Positions 2,899 to 60,887 of a stretch of DNA of 64,000 nt are shown here, piece by piece. The position numbers were made by a program, and so were the translations under genes. The notes beneath the pieces were generated by a model. That model made no database searches and had not been told where the DNA came from. It saw only the letters and a program-made list of their open reading frames with translations. How positions within the stretch are numbered: the stretch's first letter is position 1; each line of letters begins with the position of its first letter. The stretch is from Aromatoleum bremense. GTDB taxonomy: Bacteria; Pseudomonadota; Gammaproteobacteria; Burkholderiales; Rhodocyclaceae. Where the stretch lies: positions 682,001 through 746,000 of the forward strand of contig NZ_CP059467.1 in assembly GCF_017894365.1 (NCBI RefSeq). The letters are read 5' to 3'.

Positions 2899-3114
2899 AT
2901 GAGCGAGGAAGCATTCGACGACGTTACCAGCCTGCAGGTGAGGCTGGCCGAACTCAGGGCCGAGCATCGCGACCTCGACGAGGCGATCAGCCACCTTGAT
3001 GCTTCGCCGCAGGAAGATGAATTGCTGTTGCGCCGCCTCAAAAAGCGCAAGCTCGCACTGAAAGACAGGATCGCCGTCGTCGAACGCATGCTCGAACCCG
3101 ACGAGCGGGCCTGA
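2899..3114 (+). CDS. Small coiled-coil protein of the YdcH/DUF465 family
   Basis: A 71-residue acidic/basic helical protein. The pattern RLAELRAEHRDLDEAI followed by LLLRRLKKRKLALKDRI (about 44-60) is typical of DUF465, small proteins predicted to form a helical hairpin. No biochemical function is established. The ATG at 2899 is preferred because the in-frame stretch upstream (from 2734) is proline- and arginine-rich and shows no coding character. It ends 28 bp before the MetY-like gene, so co-transcription is possible. Confidence 0.8.
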   Translation: MSEEAFDDVTSLQVRLAELRAEHRDLDEAISHLDASPQEDELLLRRLKKRKLALKDRIAVVERMLEPDERA

Positions 3115-3142: not shown

Positions 3143-4447
3143 ATGACCCAATACGGATCCCCTGCTCCCGAGACGCTCGCCCTGCATGCAGGGCAGTCCC
3201 CTGATCCGGCATTCGGCGCCCGCGCGACGCCGATCTATTTCACCGCTGGCTACGTCTTTCCGGATGCCGATCACGCTGCGGCGCTGTTCAACCACGAACG
3301 ACCGGGGCACGTCGATACGCGCCTCTCGAACCCGACCAACGCAGTCCTCGAGGAGCGCGTCGCGGCCCTTGAAGGGGGTATCGGCGCGATTGCGCTGGCG
3401 AGCGGCCAGGCTGCGCTGCATGTCGCGATCGTGACACTGATGGGCGCCGGCCATCATATCGTTGCGTCGCGTTCGCTATGCGGTGCAGCGCGCAATCTGC
3501 TGGCCCACACGCTGCCGCGCTTCGGTGTCCGGACGACCTTCGTCGATCCGCGCCGCCCGGACGAATGGCGCGACGCGATCAGGCCCGAAACCCGTCTCCT
3601 GTTCGGTGAGGCGCTCGGCAATCCCGGCCTCGAGGTGCTCGACATTCCCGCCGTCGCGGCGATCGCCCATGCCCGGCGCGTCCCGCTGCTCGTCGATGCG
3701 ACGCTGGTCACACCCTGCCTGCAGCGCCCGTTGTCGCTCGGCGCAGATCTGGTCCTGCACTCGGCCACCGAGTTTCTCGGCGGCCACGGCGTCGCCGTCG
3801 GTGGCCTGCTGGTCGATGGCGGACGGTTCGACTGGGAGCAGTCCGGCCTGTTCCCGACGCTGACCGAGCCGTACGACGGCTTTCACGGCATGGATTTCAC
3901 CGAGGAGTCCCCGGTCGCGGCCTTCCTGTTGCGCGCCCGGTGCGAGGCGCTGCCGGACTTCGGTGCCTGTCTCTCGCCGATGAACGCATTCCAGATCCTC
4001 CAGGGCATCGAGACGCTGCCGCTGCGGATGCGGGCGCACGTCGCGAACGCGCGTGTCGTGGCCGCCCATCTTGCCCGTCAAGCGCTCGTCGCACGAGTCG
4101 CGTATCCGGGACTCCCGACTCATCCCGATCACGAGCTGGCGAGCCGCCTGTTGCCCGATGGAACGGGCCCGGTCCTGTCCTTCGAACTGACCGGCGGACG
4201 CGAGGCCGGCCGCGCCTTCATCGAGAGCCTGAAAGTGTTCTCGCACCTGGCGAACATCGGCGAGGCCAAGTCGCTCGTCAGCCACCCTGCGAGCACGACC
4301 CATTCCCGCCTGTCCGCCTCCGGGCTCGCTGCGACCGGGATCGGCGAAGGCACGGTGCGACTGTCGGTGGGGCTCGAGCACGTCGACGACCTGGTCGAAG
4401 ACCTGGACCGCGGACTGTATGCGGCGGACCGGGTGGCCCGGGGGTAG
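3143..4447 (+). CDS. O-acetylhomoserine sulfhydrylase-like protein lacking the PLP lysine (probable pseudoenzyme)
   Basis: A 434-residue member of the Cys/Met-metabolism PLP family, closest by pattern to MetY. LEGG..ALASGQAAL (76-92), GNPGLEVLD (159-167), VDAT (184-187), PGLPTHPDHELA and HPASTTHS are all well conserved. The PLP Schiff-base lysine, normally in HSATK(F/Y)GGHG, is Glu210 here (HSATEFLGGHG; codon GAG at 3770-3772). The Tyr that stacks on PLP in LYGGTYN is Cys113 (LCGAARN), and the Tyr-x-Arg phosphate contact is Asp58-Thr-Arg60. Asp185, Ser207 and Thr209 remain. The frame is intact, so this is not a decayed gene. Normal PLP catalysis should be impossible; the real role is unknown. 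It lies 3 bp upstream of an alpha/beta hydrolase. A functional relative, MetZ, is encoded at 59718-60887. Confidence 0.85.
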   Translation: MTQYGSPAPETLALHAGQSPDPAFGARATPIYFTAGYVFPDADHAAALFNHERPGHVDTRLSNPTNAVLEERVAALEGGIGAIALASGQAALHVAIVTLMGAGHHIVASRSLCGAARNLLAHTLPRFGVRTTFVDPRRPDEWRDAIRPETRLLFGEALGNPGLEVLDIPAVAAIAHARRVPLLVDATLVTPCLQRPLSLGADLVLHSATEFLGGHGVAVGGLLVDGGRFDWEQSGLFPTLTEPYDGFHGMDFTEESPVAAFLLRARCEALPDFGACLSPMNAFQILQGIETLPLRMRAHVANARVVAAHLARQALVARVAYPGLPTHPDHELASRLLPDGTGPVLSFELTGGREAGRAFIESLKVFSHLANIGEAKSLVSHPASTTHSRLSASGLAATGIGEGTVRLSVGLEHVDDLVEDLDRGLYAADRVARG

Positions 4448-4450
4448 ACG

Positions 4451-5260
4451 GTGCAGCTGACGGTATCCGGGCTCCCGGTCTTCATCTACACCGGCGGACA
4501 GATTTTCGTTCCCGCGCGGCCGGTCGTCGTGCTGCTGCATGGCGCCGCTCACGATCACAGCGTGTGGAACTTCCAGGCGCGCCACCTCGCGCGCCACGGT
4601 TTTTCGGTGCTCGCCCCGGATCTCCCCGGACATGGCCGCTCGGGCGGCGCCCCGCTCGCGTCGATCGAAGCGCTCGCAGGCTGGCTCGCGGCGCTGCTCG
4701 ATGCGGCCGGCGTCCGGCGTGCCGCCCTCGCCGGTCACAGCATGGGATCGCTCGTCGCGCTGCAGGCGGCGGCACAGTTCCCCGACCGCATCACGCAGCT
4801 GATTCTGCTCGGAAGCGTCGCGCCGATGCCGGTTGCCGAACCGCTGCTGTCCGCCGCGCACGTTGACCGGGCCGCAGCCCACGCGATGATCAACCACTGG
4901 TCCTACACTTTCGCGTCGCAGCTCGGGGCGAGCGCGGTGCCGGGAATCTCGCTCATGGGGCTGAATCGCCGCCTCATGGAACGACAGGGCGACAGCGTGC
5001 TGGCCATCGACCTCGGCGCCTGCAACGCCTACGAAAACGGTCTCGCAGCTGCGGCGGCGGTCCGCTGCCCGACGCTGCTGCTCTGCGCCGATCGCGACCA
5101 GATGACTCCGAGGCGCGCAGTCAAACCCCTGCATGAAGCGCTTGCCGGGGTAGCGGACGGCGCACGTATGATATCCATTCCTCGTGCCGGGCACGCAATG
5201 CTGGCGGAGGCCCCCGATGCAGTGGGCAATGCCATACGGAGCTTCCTCACCCGCCGCTGA
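4451..5260 (+). CDS. Alpha/beta hydrolase
   Basis: A 269-residue alpha/beta-hydrolase-fold protein, substrate unknown. The oxyanion-hole strand LLHGAAHD is at 28-35, the nucleophile elbow GHSMG gives Ser97, the acid is Asp216 (CADRDQMTP) and the base His248 (RAGHAML), so the triad looks complete. There is no signal peptide, so it is cytoplasmic. The GTG start at 4451 lies 3 bp after the stop of the MetY-like gene, and co-translation is likely. Esterase, acyl-transferase-like or C-C hydrolase activities are all possible for this fold; pairing with a homoserine-ester-type enzyme suggests an ester or thioester substrate, but that is inference only. Confidence 0.85.
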   Translation: MQLTVSGLPVFIYTGGQIFVPARPVVVLLHGAAHDHSVWNFQARHLARHGFSVLAPDLPGHGRSGGAPLASIEALAGWLAALLDAAGVRRAALAGHSMGSLVALQAAAQFPDRITQLILLGSVAPMPVAEPLLSAAHVDRAAAHAMINHWSYTFASQLGASAVPGISLMGLNRRLMERQGDSVLAIDLGACNAYENGLAAAAAVRCPTLLLCADRDQMTPRRAVKPLHEALAGVADGARMISIPRAGHAMLAEAPDAVGNAIRSFLTRR

Positions 5261-5323: not shown

Positions 5324-6118
5324 ATGTCGCAGCCGGAGGATGTCAAGCTGGGAACCGAGGAGTGGGTGTTTCCCGTTGTCCGGGACGTCGGGGCGGGTGC
5401 GCCGTTGCACTGGATCAGGAGCGGCTGGGCGGATTTCCGTGCCTGCCCGATACCGAGCCTGTTTTACGGATTCTGCTTTGCCGCGATGGGATTACTCGTC
5501 ACGATGGTTTTCGAGCACGCCTACGCCTACACGGTCGCGCTCACGTCGGGCTTTCTCCTGCTCGGGCCGTTTCTCGCGATGGGCCTCTACGAGATCAGCC
5601 GGCGGCGCGAGCAAGGCGCGACCTGCGCCCTCCTCCCCACCCTGACGGTGTGGAAGCGCAACGCCGGCAACATCGGCATTTTCGCCGTCGTGCTGGGCAT
5701 CGTGTTCCTCGTCTGGGCCCGCGCATCAATGGTCGTGTTCGCGCTGTTCTACACCAACGAGATGCCGAACCTGTCAGGCTTTCTGACGCAGTTGCTGGCC
5801 CTCGACAACCTCGAGTTCCTGCTCGTGTATTTCGGCGTCGGCCTGATCTTTGCGACCATCGTGTTCGCCGTCAGCGTGATTTCCGTGCCATTGATGCTCG
5901 ACCGCAACCAGGATGCGATTTCGTCGATGTTGACGAGCGTCGGGGCGTTGATGCGCAACCCGGGCGCGATGATCGTATGGGCTTTCATGATCGCCGGCCT
6001 CACGGTGATCGGATTCATGACCTTCCATCTCGGACTGGTGGTGCTGATGCCGATCGTCGGCCACGCGAGCTGGCATGCCTATCGCGACCTCGTCGTGCTG
6101 CCGGCCGCGCCGAGCTGA
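5324..6118 (+). CDS. DUF2189 integral membrane protein
   Basis: A 264-residue inner-membrane protein with about six hydrophobic segments (roughly 48-65, 68-90, 115-140, 160-190, 218-240 and 240-258). The N-terminal layout (WIRSGWADFRACP, then SLFYGFCF) and overall length match DUF2189 proteins, whose function is unknown. It has a strong Shine-Dalgarno (GGAGAGAGAG) before the ATG at 5324. It is the third gene in the same direction after the MetY-like and hydrolase genes, with a 63-bp gap, so operon membership is plausible but not proven. Confidence 0.8.
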   Translation: MSQPEDVKLGTEEWVFPVVRDVGAGAPLHWIRSGWADFRACPIPSLFYGFCFAAMGLLVTMVFEHAYAYTVALTSGFLLLGPFLAMGLYEISRRREQGATCALLPTLTVWKRNAGNIGIFAVVLGIVFLVWARASMVVFALFYTNEMPNLSGFLTQLLALDNLEFLLVYFGVGLIFATIVFAVSVISVPLMLDRNQDAISSMLTSVGALMRNPGAMIVWAFMIAGLTVIGFMTFHLGLVVLMPIVGHASWHAYRDLVVLPAAPS

Positions 6119-11472: not shown

Positions 11473-12060
11473 TCAGCTGCCGCCAGCCGGCCCCACCGCC
11501 AGACCCAGCGCGCGAAAGCCACGGAACAGCGCAACGATGCTCTTGCCGTCCGTGATGCGTCCGTCCTGCGCAGCCTCCAGCGCCTCCTCGACGGAAAGGG
11601 TCAGGACCTCGAGAAATTCACCGTCGTCCAGGGCATCCCCGACATGCGAGAGGCCGCGCGCGAGAAAAATCTCGATGCGTTCGTCCGAATAACCGATGCA
11701 CGGGTGCATCACACCCAGATACTGCCATTCGTCCGCCTCGTAGCCGGTCTCTTCCCGCAGTTCCCGGCAAGCACAACTCAGCAGGTCTTCGCCGGCATCG
11801 ATCTTTCCGGCCGGCAGTTCGAGAAAAGCACGCCGAAGCGGGTAGCGATACTGGCGCTCGAACAGCAGCCTGCCGTCGGGAAGCACCGCAAGTACCACCA
11901 CCGCACCGGGATGCCGCACATATTCGCGCATCGATTCCGCCCCGTCGGGCAGCCTGACCCGATCGCGTCGGACTTTCAGCAACGCCCCCTCGAAAACCGG
12001 CTCGGAGTCGAGTTCGAGTTCTTCGAGCGGGTCCCGCTCAGAGGGAGGCGAGCAACGCAT
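11473..12060 (-). CDS. Nudix hydrolase, ADP-ribose pyrophosphatase type
   Basis: A 195-residue Nudix enzyme. The Nudix box is complete at residues 85-107: Gly85, Glu91, Arg99-Glu100, Glu103-Glu104 and Gly106. The preceding QYRYP (70-74) and ELPAGKID (81-88) are typical of the NudF/ADP-ribose diphosphatase branch, which hydrolyses ADP-ribose and other nucleotide sugars; the exact substrate is inferred. It overlaps the 3' end of nuoN by 23 bp in the same direction, so it is probably the last gene of the nuo transcript. The ATG at 12060 could be replaced by a later start. Confidence 0.9.
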
Positions 12061-13507
12061 AGGCGCAGACCGACATCAGCCCCTGGGGCAGCAGGCCGAG
12101 TACCGCGATCGCCAGACCGTTGGCCGAAAGCATCACGCGTACTTCGGCCGGAGCACGGATCGGCGCGGAGTCGGTGGGTTCGTCGAAATACATGACCTTC
12201 ACGACGCGCAGGTAGTAATACGCACCGATCACCGACATCACCACAGCCAGCACGGCGAGCCACACATAGCCCGCTGCGACGACCGCCTGGAGCACGGACA
12301 GTTTCGCGAAGAACCCGATGAAGAACGGAATGCCCGCCATCGAGAACATGACGATCATCATCATTGCGGCGAACCACGAACTACGCTTGTTCAGCCCCTT
12401 GAAGTCGTCGATATTCTCGGCTTCGAACCCCGCACGCGACAGCAGGATCACCATTCCGAACGAGGCAAGGCTCATGATCACGTACGACACGGCGTAGAAC
12501 ATCGCCGAACTGTAGGCGTTGAGTGCGAAATGGCGGTCGCCCTCCACCACGCCGGAAAGCAGGCCCAGCAGCACGAAGCCCATGTGCGAAATGCCCGAAT
12601 ACGCCAGCATCCGCTTGATGCTCGACTGGGCGATCGCCGCGAAGTTGCCCAGAATGATCGACAGCACGGCGAGGAACATCAGCATCGACTGCCACTGTTC
12701 TGCCAGTTCGAACAGGCCATACACCAGCAACCGCATCGTCATGGCAAACGCGGCAAGCTTCGGTGCCGACGAGATCATCAGCGTCACAGCGGTCGGGGCG
12801 CCTTGATAGACGTCGGGCACCCACATGTGGAAAGGCACCACCCCCAGCTTGAATGCGATTCCCGCGACCAGGAACACCACGCCGAACAACAGCACGGTCT
12901 TGTTTGCGGCCTGGTGATAGATCGACTGCGCGATCCCCGAGAACTCGAGGCTGCCGGTCGCGCCATAAACCATCGACATGCCGTACAGCAGCAGCCCGGA
13001 CGCGAGCGCGCCGAGCACGAAATACTTCATCGCCGCTTCGGTCGAGCGAGCCGACTCGCGGTCGAACGCCACCATCCCGTAGAGCGACAGCGACATCATC
13101 TCCAGTCCGATGTACAGCGACAACATGTGGTTCGACGTGACCATCACCATCATGCCGAGCGTCATCAGCAGCGTGAGCAGATAGTATTCGGGGCGATCGA
13201 TGTTGCGGTCGGCGAGGTAGCCTCGCCCGTACAGCAGGGCGATCGCGACGGTGAAGTAGATCATGACCTTCAGGAAATCCCCCATCAGGTCTGAAATGAA
13301 CATGTTGCTGAAAGTCAACGTGACCTGACCGTCCATCGTCCCAATCGTGATGAGCGCGGCGACAACGAGCGTCGTCTGGGTCAGATAATAGGCCAGACCG
13401 CGTGCAATCCGCCGCGCAAAGGTTGTCGCCATCATGATGATGAGCGCCATCACGGCAACAAAAATCTCGGCCGCCGCGGGGTAGAAGTCGGGAATAACAA
13501 AATTCAT
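12038..13507 (-). CDS. nuoN: NADH-quinone oxidoreductase subunit N
   Basis: One of the three Mrp-antiporter-like proton-pumping subunits of complex I in the inner membrane. 489 residues, about 14 hydrophobic segments. Conserved features include GLEMMSL (TM5 Glu of the proton channel) and the YSGISHMGF segment. The last structural nuo gene in the operon, in the canonical position after nuoM, with a 36-bp gap. Confidence 0.97.
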
Positions 13508-13543
13508 CTTCTGACCAGTCCGAAAAAAGTCTCGCCCGCTCGA

Positions 13544-15025
13544 TTAGAGCTTGCTTACGGCAACGTGCCGCAGGAGTTCATTGACCGAAGCATGCATGAC
13601 TTCGGTGAAGGGGTATGGATACAAGCCCATTGCCAGCACGCACAGGGCCAGAACCCCGAGGAACGCGAACTCTCGACCGTCGATATCATTCAGTTGCGCG
13701 ACATGGCTGTTGCCGATCGCGCCGAACATCACGCGCTTGTACATCCAGAGGGTGTATGCGGCGCCGAGAATCAGCGTTATCGCTGCTGCGAACGCGACCC
13801 AGAAATTGAACTGGACCGCGCCGAGGACGACCATGAACTCGCCGACGAAGCCGCTGGTGCCGGGCAACCCGGCGTTGGCCATCGCAAACAGCATGAAGAA
13901 TGCAGCGAACTTCGGCATCACTTTCACCACGCCGCCGTAATCGGCGATGTTGCGCGAGTGCATGCGGTCGTAAAGCACCCCGATGCAAAGGAACATCGCG
14001 CCCGAGACGAAGCCGTGCGAAATCATCTGCACCAGCGCGCCCTCGAGGCCGATGGTGTTGAACATGAAGAACCCGAGCGTGACGAAACCCATGTGCGAGA
14101 TCGACGAGTATGCGACGAGCTTCTTCATGTCCGTCTGCACGAGGGCGACGAAACCGATATAGACCACCGCGATCAGCGACAGCGTGATCATCATCGGCGC
14201 CATCGCCTGGGCCGCGTCCGGGACGATCGGCAGCGAGAAACGCAGGAAGCCGTACGCACCGAGTTTCAGCGCGATTGCCGCCAGCACTACTGAACCCCCT
14301 GTCGGCGCTTCGACGTGCGCATCAGGCAGCCAGGTATGAACCGGCCACATCGGCACCTTCACTGCGAACGCGATGAGGAAGGCCCAGAAAATCAGCGTCT
14401 GCGGACCCATTTCGAGCGGCAACTGGTGCCAATCGAGGATGTTGAAGCTGCCACCGCCCTCCATGAACAGATACAGCAGCGCGACCAGCATCAGCAGCGA
14501 ACCGAACAGCGTATAGAGGAAGAACTTGATCGCCGCATACACCCGGTTCGCGCCGCCCCAGATCCCGATGACCAGATACAGCGGGATCAGCGAAGCTTCG
14601 AAGAACGTGTAGAACAGCACGGCGTCCAGGGCCGAGAAGATGCCGTTCATCAGGCCCGACATGATCAGGAAGGCAGCCATGTACTGCGCCACTTTCTGCT
14701 GGATCACCTGCCATCCCGCGATCACGACCATGATCGTGATGAATGCGTTCAACAGGACGAACAGCACCGAAATCCCGTCGACTCCGAGGTGGTAATTGAT
14801 GTTGAAGCGCGGAATCCACGGCAGGATCTCGACGAACTGCATCGCGCTGGTACTCGCGTCGAACTGCGAGTACAGCGGCAGCGTCACGAGGAAACCGGCA
14901 ATGGCGACCAGCATGGCCAGGAACCGCGCCAGCGGCGCATTACGATCCGACCCGGTCGCTAGCACGAGCAACCCCCCCAGGATCGGTACCCAGATCGCAA
15001 GGCTCAGGAATGGCAAACCCGTCAT
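13544..15025 (-). CDS. nuoM: NADH-quinone oxidoreductase subunit M
   Basis: Antiporter-like proton-pumping subunit of complex I. 493 residues, very hydrophobic, about 14 transmembrane helices. The TM5 Glu lies in FFEASLIPLYL, TM7-8 carry PVHTWLPDAHVEAPT, and YSSISHMGF follows. It lies between nuoL and nuoN as usual. The ATG at 15025 starts the typical short periplasmic/TM1 segment. Confidence 0.97.
   Translation of the reverse strand: MTGLPFLSLAIWVPILGGLLVLATGSDRNAPLARFLAMLVAIAGFLVTLPLYSQFDASTSAMQFVEILPWIPRFNINYHLGVDGISVLFVLLNAFITIMVVIAGWQVIQQKVAQYMAAFLIMSGLMNGIFSALDAVLFYTFFEASLIPLYLVIGIWGGANRVYAAIKFFLYTLFGSLLMLVALLYLFMEGGGSFNILDWHQLPLEMGPQTLIFWAFLIAFAVKVPMWPVHTWLPDAHVEAPTGGSVVLAAIALKLGAYGFLRFSLPIVPDAAQAMAPMMITLSLIAVVYIGFVALVQTDMKKLVAYSSISHMGFVTLGFFMFNTIGLEGALVQMISHGFVSGAMFLCIGVLYDRMHSRNIADYGGVVKVMPKFAAFFMLFAMANAGLPGTSGFVGEFMVVLGAVQFNFWVAFAAAITLILGAAYTLWMYKRVMFGAIGNSHVAQLNDIDGREFAFLGVLALCVLAMGLYPYPFTEVMHASVNELLRHVAVSKL

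Positions 15026-39042: not shown

Positions 39043-39046
<4 letters not shown>
38570..39046 (-). CDS. greA: Transcription elongation factor GreA
   Basis: Rescues backtracked RNA polymerase. 158 residues: N-terminal coiled coil with the acidic tip [13 protein letters not shown] (the two acidic residues that hold Mg2+) and a C-terminal FKBP-like domain. The ATG overlaps the carB TGA (ATGA), so greA is translationally coupled to carAB. A longer frame starting within carB is rejected. Confidence 0.96.
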
Positions 39047-42270
<3,224 letters not shown>

Positions 42271-42296
42271 TGCCTAACCTCGGTCTTGCGTTGATG

Positions 42297-59717: not shown

Positions 59718-60887
59718 TCAGGCTCCCAGACCCCGGGCAAGGTCGGCACGCAGGTCCTCGATCGACTCGAGACCGACCGCCACGCGCAGCAATCCTTCTC
59801 CGATTCCCGCAGCAGCACGCGCTTCGGCGCTGATGCGGCCGTGCGTCGTCGACGCCGGATGAGTGATCGTCGTTTTCGTGTCGCCGAGATTCGCGGTGAT
59901 CGAAATCATCCGGGTGGCATCGACCACCCGCCACGCACGTTCGCGCCCCCCCGCGACTTCGAAGCTGACGATCGCACCGCCGGATTTTTGCTGGCGCATC
60001 GCCAGTGCGTGCTGCGGGTGCGATGCGAGGCCGGGGTAAAACACGCGTACCACCCCCGGCTGCTGTTCCAGCCAGCGCGCCAGATTCAGGCTGGTCGCCG
60101 ACTGCGCATCCATCCGGATGCGCAGCGTCTCCAGACCTTTCAGAATCACCCATGCATTGAACGGTGAAATGCTCGGCCCGGCAGTACGCAGGAACTTGAG
60201 CACCTCGTCGACGACGACTTTCGCCCCGGCCACTGCGCCTCCGAGCACTCTCCCCTGCCCGTCGAGGTATTTGGTCGCCGAATGCACGACGACGTCGGCG
60301 CCCAGTTCCAACGGGCGCTGCAATGCGGGGGTACAGAAACAGTTGTCGACCGCGAACAGCGCGCCCGCGCCGTGGGCAATCTCCGCGACCGCCGCGATGT
60401 CGATGACTTCGGTGAGCGGGTTCGACGGCGTTTCGACGAAGAAGAGGCGCGTACGCGGCGTCACCGCAGCGCGGTACGCATCGAGTTCGGTGGCGGCGAC
60501 AAAGCTGGTCTCGATGCCGAATTTCGAGAGAATCGTGCCGAATAGCTGCTGCGTCGCACCGAACAGCCCTGTCGAAGCGACCACGTGATCACCGGCTTTC
60601 AGTGTCGCCATCGCCAGCGAGAGAATCGCCGCCATTCCCGACGCGGTCGCGACGCACGCCTCGGCGCCTTCGAGCGCCGCGAGCCGCTCCTGCATCGCCG
60701 TGACGGTCGGGTTCGAGAAACGCGCATAGACGTTGCCCGGCTCCTCGCCGGAAAAACGCGCTGCCGCCTGCGCTGCACTGCCGAACACGAAGCTCGAGGT
60801 CAGGTAAAGCGCCTCGCTGTGCTCGTTGAACTGGCTGCGTGCAGTGCCTGCCCGCACTGCCAGGGTGTCAAATTCGTAGGGATTCAT
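59718..60887 (-). CDS. metZ: O-succinylhomoserine sulfhydrylase
   Basis: PLP enzyme making homocysteine from an O-acylhomoserine plus sulfide. 389 residues. The PLP lysine is present: K206 in HSATKYLDGQGRVLGG. YARFSNPT (54-61), GLFGATQQL and VDNCFCTPALQRP are as expected. It contrasts with the lysine-less relative at 3143-4447. Next to purF (9-bp gap), an order common in beta- and gammaproteobacteria, which supports MetZ rather than MetB. Confidence 0.92.
   Translation of the reverse strand: MNPYEFDTLAVRAGTARSQFNEHSEALYLTSSFVFGSAAQAAARFSGEEPGNVYARFSNPTVTAMQERLAALEGAEACVATASGMAAILSLAMATLKAGDHVVASTGLFGATQQLFGTILSKFGIETSFVAATELDAYRAAVTPRTRLFFVETPSNPLTEVIDIAAVAEIAHGAGALFAVDNCFCTPALQRPLELGADVVVHSATKYLDGQGRVLGGAVAGAKVVVDEVLKFLRTAGPSISPFNAWVILKGLETLRIRMDAQSATSLNLARWLEQQPGVVRVFYPGLASHPQHALAMRQQKSGGAIVSFEVAGGRERAWRVVDATRMISITANLGDTKTTITHPASTTHGRISAEARAAAGIGEGLLRVAVGLESIEDLRADLARGLGA

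Follow-up and report, generated by a model that had tools for sequence, protein, structure and literature searches.

Introduction

Lysine-less relatives of PLP enzymes that selection has kept are known mainly as eukaryotic paralogues. Antizyme inhibitor is a dead paralogue of a PLP enzyme and acts by binding antizyme; it resembles the protein reported here in being a pseudoenzyme derived from a PLP enzyme, but its fold type III and eukaryotic setting set it apart. Another parallel is SPT1/LCB1 of eukaryotic serine palmitoyltransferase, which part of PMC6148460 describes as a relative of fold-type-I PLP enzymes that lacks the PLP lysine and has been kept. SPT1 is thus lysine-less and kept like our protein, in a different PLP family, but as a paralogue it pairs with the catalytic SPT2 in a heterodimer, whereas ours is a converted orthologue whose partner is putative. 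According to PMC9763685, MetY itself and Met15 assemble as homotetramers, and it takes more than one subunit to complete an active site. Lysine-less partners of PLP enzymes are already known, then, in SPT1; for the MetY family we found no report of a lysine-less pseudoenzyme among the open-access literature listed, by titles and the beginnings of abstracts.

Here we describe such a protein, encoded in a 64,000-nucleotide stretch (hereafter the window) of the genome of Aromatoleum bremense (G000; one contig of 4,376,837 bases). It is like PRK08134-type MetY (NF006004, TIGR01326, PF01053) in its full-length homology and in its gene order with a hydrolase, but differs from it in being without the Schiff-base lysine, the stacking tyrosine and the phosphate-contact tyrosine.

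A MetY-family protein with replaced cofactor residues

The gene at 3143..4447 (+) is an open reading frame of 434 codons from ATG to TGA with no internal stops. Its product, a PRK08134-type protein of the MetY family and very probably a pseudoenzyme, matched NF006004 (PRK08134, O-acetylhomoserine aminocarboxypropyltransferase) over its full length with 761.6 bits (cut-off 636), TIGR01326 with 527.5 bits (cut-off 495.1) and PF01053 with 397.5 bits over residues 10-425, placing it by sequence among the Cys/Met-metabolism PLP enzymes along its whole length. The nearest solved structures by sequence are the O-acetylhomoserine sulfhydrylases 4kam and 7kb0. An earlier note, made from the sequence alone, had described a full-length MetY-type protein with an intact reading frame, and both descriptions hold.

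Residue roles were carried over from methionine gamma-lyase, on which we take residue 113 to stack on PLP, 58 and 60 as well as 207 and 209 to contact the phosphate, 185 the pyridine nitrogen and 406 the carboxylate. Codons and alignment with relatives agree that the Schiff-base lysine is replaced by Glu210 (GAG, 3770..3772, +), the stacking tyrosine by Cys113 (TGC, 3479..3481, +) and the phosphate-contact tyrosine by Asp58 (GAT, 3314..3316, +), just as the earlier note had read them. Asp185, Ser207 and Thr209, which it had listed as intact, are all present, together with Arg406 and Arg60 (CGC, 3320..3322, +), the last being Ser in A. anaerobium (G001) and Gly in a second lysine-less protein (L179) discussed below. 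Two further codons stand out: codon 36 (3248..3250, +) encodes Gly where Lys-type proteins have Ser (167/178) or Ala (10/178), and codon 117 (3491..3493, +) encodes Arg where 169 of the 178 have His; the second lysine-less protein carries Gly and Arg at the same places.

Five of the 17 genomes of the genus (G000, G001, G002, G003 and G009; hereafter the Glu clade) combine Glu210 and Asp58 with Gly or Cys at 113, and the other 12 have Lys, Tyr and Tyr. Within the clade only G000 has Cys113, while its four sister genomes carry Gly113, which refines the claim of the earlier note at this site. Two Glu-clade proteins are identical to the named records of A. anaerobium (L002) and A. buckelii (L001). 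Across 184 distinct proteins (209 loci, a part of the matches from a family-wide and an order-wide search), residue 210 is Lys in 178, Glu in five, all of the Aromatoleum clade, and Gly in one. The replacements coincide more than chance would allow: all six proteins without Lys210 have Asp58 and Cys or Gly at 113, while the 178 Lys210 proteins have Tyr113 throughout and Tyr58 in 177, the remaining one being unreadable there. Aligned at positions 58, 113 and 210, as the earlier note had proposed, the four closest homologues proved to be without the lysine too, rather than all having it.

The protein of the window is 80-83% identical to its Lys-type orthologues within the genus. All five Glu-clade frames start at ATG and keep a net length of 434 codons, and the only early stop, at codon 433 in G002, costs the last two residues. 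At 36 positions the Glu clade carries residues absent from all 16 Lys rows compared (the 12 Lys genomes of the genus plus L009, L010, L014 and L020, the L010 protein being the same as that of G012 over the tree columns), and 23 of 310 otherwise invariant positions are altered in all five members. The changed positions include 35, 36, 58, 61, 113, 115-117, 122, 157, 210, 380, 388 and 390, many of which adjoin cofactor residues in the sequence. Fixed changes fall on 3 of 11 PLP-contact residues, a marginal excess (P 0.04) that assumes all 11 to lie within the 310 invariant positions.

The three Glu-clade proteins scanned (that of the window, L001 and L002) score 750-762 bits on NF006004. As these scores pass the curated cut-off of 636, automatic annotation would label dead proteins as active enzymes.

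Gene neighbourhood and orthology

Directly upstream lies a gene for a DUF465 protein (2899..3114, +), which many relatives have in this position too, and 3 bases past the stop begins a gene for an alpha/beta hydrolase (4451..5260, +), followed by one for a DUF2189 membrane protein (5324..6118, +). MetY sits between the DUF465 and hydrolase genes in Glu and Lys species alike; because the place is the same in both, the residues were lost from the orthologue itself rather than from an extra copy. Where the MetY is 60% or more identical to the protein of the window, the hydrolase gene is directly downstream in 64 of 68 loci, two of them Glu-type, against none of the nine testable loci below 60%. 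The pairing of PRK08134-type MetY with the hydrolase occurs mostly in betaproteobacteria; some of the records carry an alpha- or gammaproteobacterial label.

None among 25 of the 37 NCBIfam models listed for the hydrolase reached its cut-off. Ser97, Asp216 and His248, which we assign by motif as its catalytic triad, lie in motifs that are intact in the Glu clade, as read through to the His in four of the five genomes; the stretch from G009 ends before the His.

Elsewhere in the window, the NuoN and NuoM genes of NADH dehydrogenase (12038-15025, -) lie inside a strong positive AT skew at 12-18 kb. The gene for the large subunit of carbamoyl-phosphate synthase (39043-42270, -) faces an open frame of 1080 aa on the opposite strand (39052-42294, +), which is likely a by-product of codon bias.

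Selection after the loss

A branch codon model of 13 taxa (the five Glu genomes, six Lys genomes of the genus, L009 and L010) gave MetY an omega of 0.030 in the Lys part of the tree, rising to 0.069 on the Glu-clade stem and to 0.116 in the crown (lnL -6832.85 for a single omega, -6797.65 for three, and -6943.16 with crown omega set to 1). Constraint in the Glu clade is thus about fourfold weaker than in the Lys orthologues, and a crown omega of 1 is rejected at a cost of 145.5 lnL units (2dlnL 291). Compared with their consensus, the five Glu genes contain 101 amino-acid-changing codons, against about 545 expected neutrally in 500 simulations at the fourfold-site rate, the lowest of which gave 493. 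The same simulations produced 4.8 stops on average and none in some runs, so that the single stop observed (codon 433 of G002) is undecisive as a count. A neutral pseudogene is ruled out by omega and by the number of changes, and the view of the earlier note that this is not recent decay stands. The proteins thus combine absent catalytic residues with purifying selection and frames open in all five genomes, as a pseudoenzyme does.

A general relaxation of the region or the pathway in this clade was set aside on two controls. DUF2189, over about the first 207 of its 264 codons, showed none (-3819.92 vs -3819.26, 2dlnL 1.3), nor did MetZ (-5418.50 vs -5417.35, 2dlnL 2.3; tree without an outgroup, so the stem is soft). 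The hydrolase was mildly relaxed in the Glu clade (omega 0.081, 0.129 and 0.168; -5166.28 vs -5160.24, 2dlnL 12), and the second MetY of these genomes (MetY2) had a raised omega on the stem (0.0146, stem 0.0761, crown 0.0215; -4498.30 vs -4488.41, 2dlnL 19.8), in a tree that is again without an outgroup and soft at the stem.

The main rival to a kept function is slow, incomplete decay. On this view MetY2 and MetZ made MetY redundant, catalysis was lost, and the remaining constraint is a passing one, due to avoidance of misfolding or to the coupling of its translation with that of the hydrolase, the protein itself having no positive role. The fourfold rise in omega would fit such a course. So would the amino-acid identity of MetY, which falls from 0.945 in the Lys group to 0.922 in the Glu clade, although for its three neighbour genes the Glu clade shows the higher identity. 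Further pocket-side residues have also eroded in single species (G001 has Ser for Arg60 and Leu for His387, G009 has Asp for His381), and G002 has lost its last two residues. The mild relaxation of the hydrolase itself also counts against our main reading. Decay would nevertheless have to account for the crown omega of 0.116 over five species after the loss and the shortfall of changes against the neutral expectation; coupling of translation requires an open frame, not a conserved sequence; and the protein of the second lineage, though much further diverged, has kept its full length. We regard slow decay as rather unlikely, and consider a protein kept for a non-catalytic role the better account.

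Intact paralogues in the same genomes

MetY2 (G000:C1:3967922-3969196, L082) is 47-48% identical to the window protein and has its Lys in all 14 loci read, those of the five Glu genomes included. The metZ gene in the window (O-succinylhomoserine sulfhydrylase; 59718..60887, -), used as a control, keeps the Lys motif HSATKYLDGQG, which is intact in 13 of the 13 genomes read. MetX-like proteins occur in all 17 genomes of the genus at 461-470 bits, under the 500-bit cut-off. On the stem where the first MetY lost its Lys, MetY2 omega rises from 0.015 to 0.076, an estimate made without an outgroup, as if MetY2 had taken over part of the work of the first MetY.

Given these paralogues, the window protein might serve as a regulatory or stabilising subunit in mixed oligomers with active MetY2 or MetZ, much as SPT1 does with SPT2. 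The homotetramers of MetY and Met15, in which monomers jointly complete the active site, lend this some appeal, as do the presence of intact MetY2 in all five clade genomes and its raised omega on the same stem. An identity of merely 47-48% speaks against co-assembly with MetY2, however, whose stem estimate is moreover soft, and MetZ shows no change in selection. In MetY, Tyr58 is lent by one subunit to the active site of its neighbour, so that a mixed site would be harmed by the loss of this residue in the window protein. We consider mixed oligomers improbable.

A second lysine-less lineage

In the family-wide search, which found some match in 294 of 297 genomes, a second MetY pseudoenzyme with an intact open reading frame came from genus g63 (L180:8657-9994; matched part G078:C7:37716-38984, L179). 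The genus is represented by this one draft genome (G078) of about 70 contigs and 95% completeness. The protein is 58% identical to that of the window and scores 551.9 bits on NF006004, below the cut-off; it has Gly210, Asp58, Gly60, Cys113, Glu185, Ala207, Ser209, Trp387 and Gln406. It is therefore like the window protein in family, gene order, loss of the Lys, Asp58, Cys113, Gly36 and Arg117, but unlike it in having Gly at 210 and in having also lost Arg60, Asp185, Ser207, Thr209, His387 and Arg406. An alpha/beta hydrolase gene (L180:10000-10812) begins 5 bases after it, its product 45.6% identical and with intact motifs, so that in both pseudoenzyme lineages a hydrolase gene stands directly behind the pseudoenzyme. 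A further MetY of this genome, 49% identical, retains its Lys (L182).

An AU test on a quick tree, built without 20 trait columns but with position 36, rejected a single clade of the g63 protein and the Aromatoleum clade (p 0.0059). L179 does not group with the Aromatoleum clade but sits on a long branch (1.37) that makes its place unsure, a caveat under which we set aside a common origin of the two pseudoenzymes. The second lineage thus seems to have reached the lysine-less state separately. L179 shares 4 of the 21 residues diagnostic of the clade (positions where the Glu-clade residue occurs in <2% of Lys-type rows), namely Gly36, Asp58, Cys113 and Arg117, whereas among 53 Lys-type control rows of <68% identity, 48 share none, four share one and one shares two. 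These similarities look like parallel change around the cofactor site, a lead drawn from the sequence of a single genome on a long branch. On the L179 branch omega is 0.051 and a value of 1 is rejected (-11463.02 vs -11398.90), but as this branch covers the stretch before the loss and is saturated, the estimate is no proof of selection after it. The order-wide search of 399 genomes, 87 of which matched the second pseudoenzyme at E 1e-130, revealed no third lysine-less case at that threshold in the stretches read.

The repeated Ser36Gly, Tyr58Asp, Tyr113Cys and His117Arg, at 4/21 against 0-2 in the controls, might also mean that the emptied cofactor pocket now binds some other small molecule, or holds PLP without a covalent bond, and that the protein works as a sensor or carrier. 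The retention of Asp185, Ser207, Thr209 and Arg406 in the Aromatoleum clade would suit such binding, yet the second lineage has lost all four and residue 210 differs between the two (Glu vs Gly), so that a common binding site is not evident. Of ligand binding we are more doubtful still than of mixed oligomers.

Predicted structure

An AlphaFold model of the window protein built with 32 aligned sequences had a pLDDT of 82.0 and a pTM of 0.83, against 79.8 and 0.83 for the Lys-type control from A. toluvorans with the same rows. Confidence was low in residues 1-61 and 370-373 of the window protein and in 1-61 and 375-384 of the control; collapse of the fold was rejected, since the weak stretches occur in the control too and are uninformative on the pseudoenzyme. 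The structures placed highest by Foldseek were MetY-type (8sf5, 8sf6, 8wko and 8erb, then 7kb0, 4kam and 2ctz), with TMq to MetY chains of 0.77-0.88. In the model, the fold is without visible effect from the residue losses and resembles that of the Lys-type control, in agreement with the maintained fold for which the earlier note had argued.

Discussion

We read the gene at 3143..4447 as that of a MetY pseudoenzyme, an orthologue converted in place and kept for a non-catalytic role, plausibly alongside the hydrolase, and as a state that a second lineage seems to have reached separately; to this reading as a whole we give a probability of about one half. Its parts differ in strength: that the window protein is a pseudoenzyme we hold with high confidence, that a non-catalytic role is being kept is reasonably likely, and the alpha/beta hydrolase as its partner is a tentative suggestion. 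With the Lys and both Tyr absent, PLP catalysis by the window protein is very unlikely on the evidence of its residues, and recruitment to a new role is what we infer. Purifying selection, the hydrolase directly behind and the alternatives offered by MetY2 and MetZ together make a kept non-catalytic role the simplest account.

The course of events may have started from a Lys-type, PLP-dependent MetY beside an alpha/beta hydrolase gene, as present in many betaproteobacteria. The common ancestor of one Aromatoleum clade would then have lost the Schiff-base Lys, the stacking Tyr and the phosphate Tyr and, very probably, PLP chemistry along with them. Purifying selection has acted on the gene since then, and its product has probably been kept as a folded MetY-like oligomer. 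Homocysteine synthesis could be covered by MetY2 and MetZ, whose intact genes are present. The most likely role of the protein, to which gene order points, would be to support the co-encoded and apparently still active hydrolase as a structural or allosteric partner, although gene neighbourhood by itself is weak evidence that two proteins bind.

Two other explanations concern the chemistry and the data themselves. A residual PLP reaction is a formal possibility by analogy with the S1P lyase of Legionella, a fold-type-I PLP enzyme whose Lys366 is reported as non-essential in part of PMC6148460. An error in base calling or assembly, or a strain-level mutation, would need only one base to turn Lys into Glu (AAG to GAG), but is practically refuted, as the earlier note had expected of a sequencing error, by the same states in five genome assemblies, the linked changes at three cofactor sites and the 36 clade-only positions.

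Returning to a pseudoenzyme kept for a non-catalytic role, a wider and more speculative version, which we think unlikely, is that hydrolase-linked MetY has turned non-catalytic at least two times by parallel remodelling (Gly36, Asp58, Cys113 or Gly113, Arg117), with Lys-type members already holding a second, non-enzymatic job, such as partner of the hydrolase, that is sufficient to keep the gene.

For annotation, the Glu-clade proteins scanned are a trap, standing above a curated cut-off for an active enzyme. For the family, a single orthologue of a bacterial methionine-pathway enzyme appears to have been converted in place, apparently twice, with the motifs of the neighbouring hydrolase kept. 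The Glu clade thereby offers a natural setting, in the named strains A. buckelii and A. anaerobium, in which to test whether MetY hides a second function.
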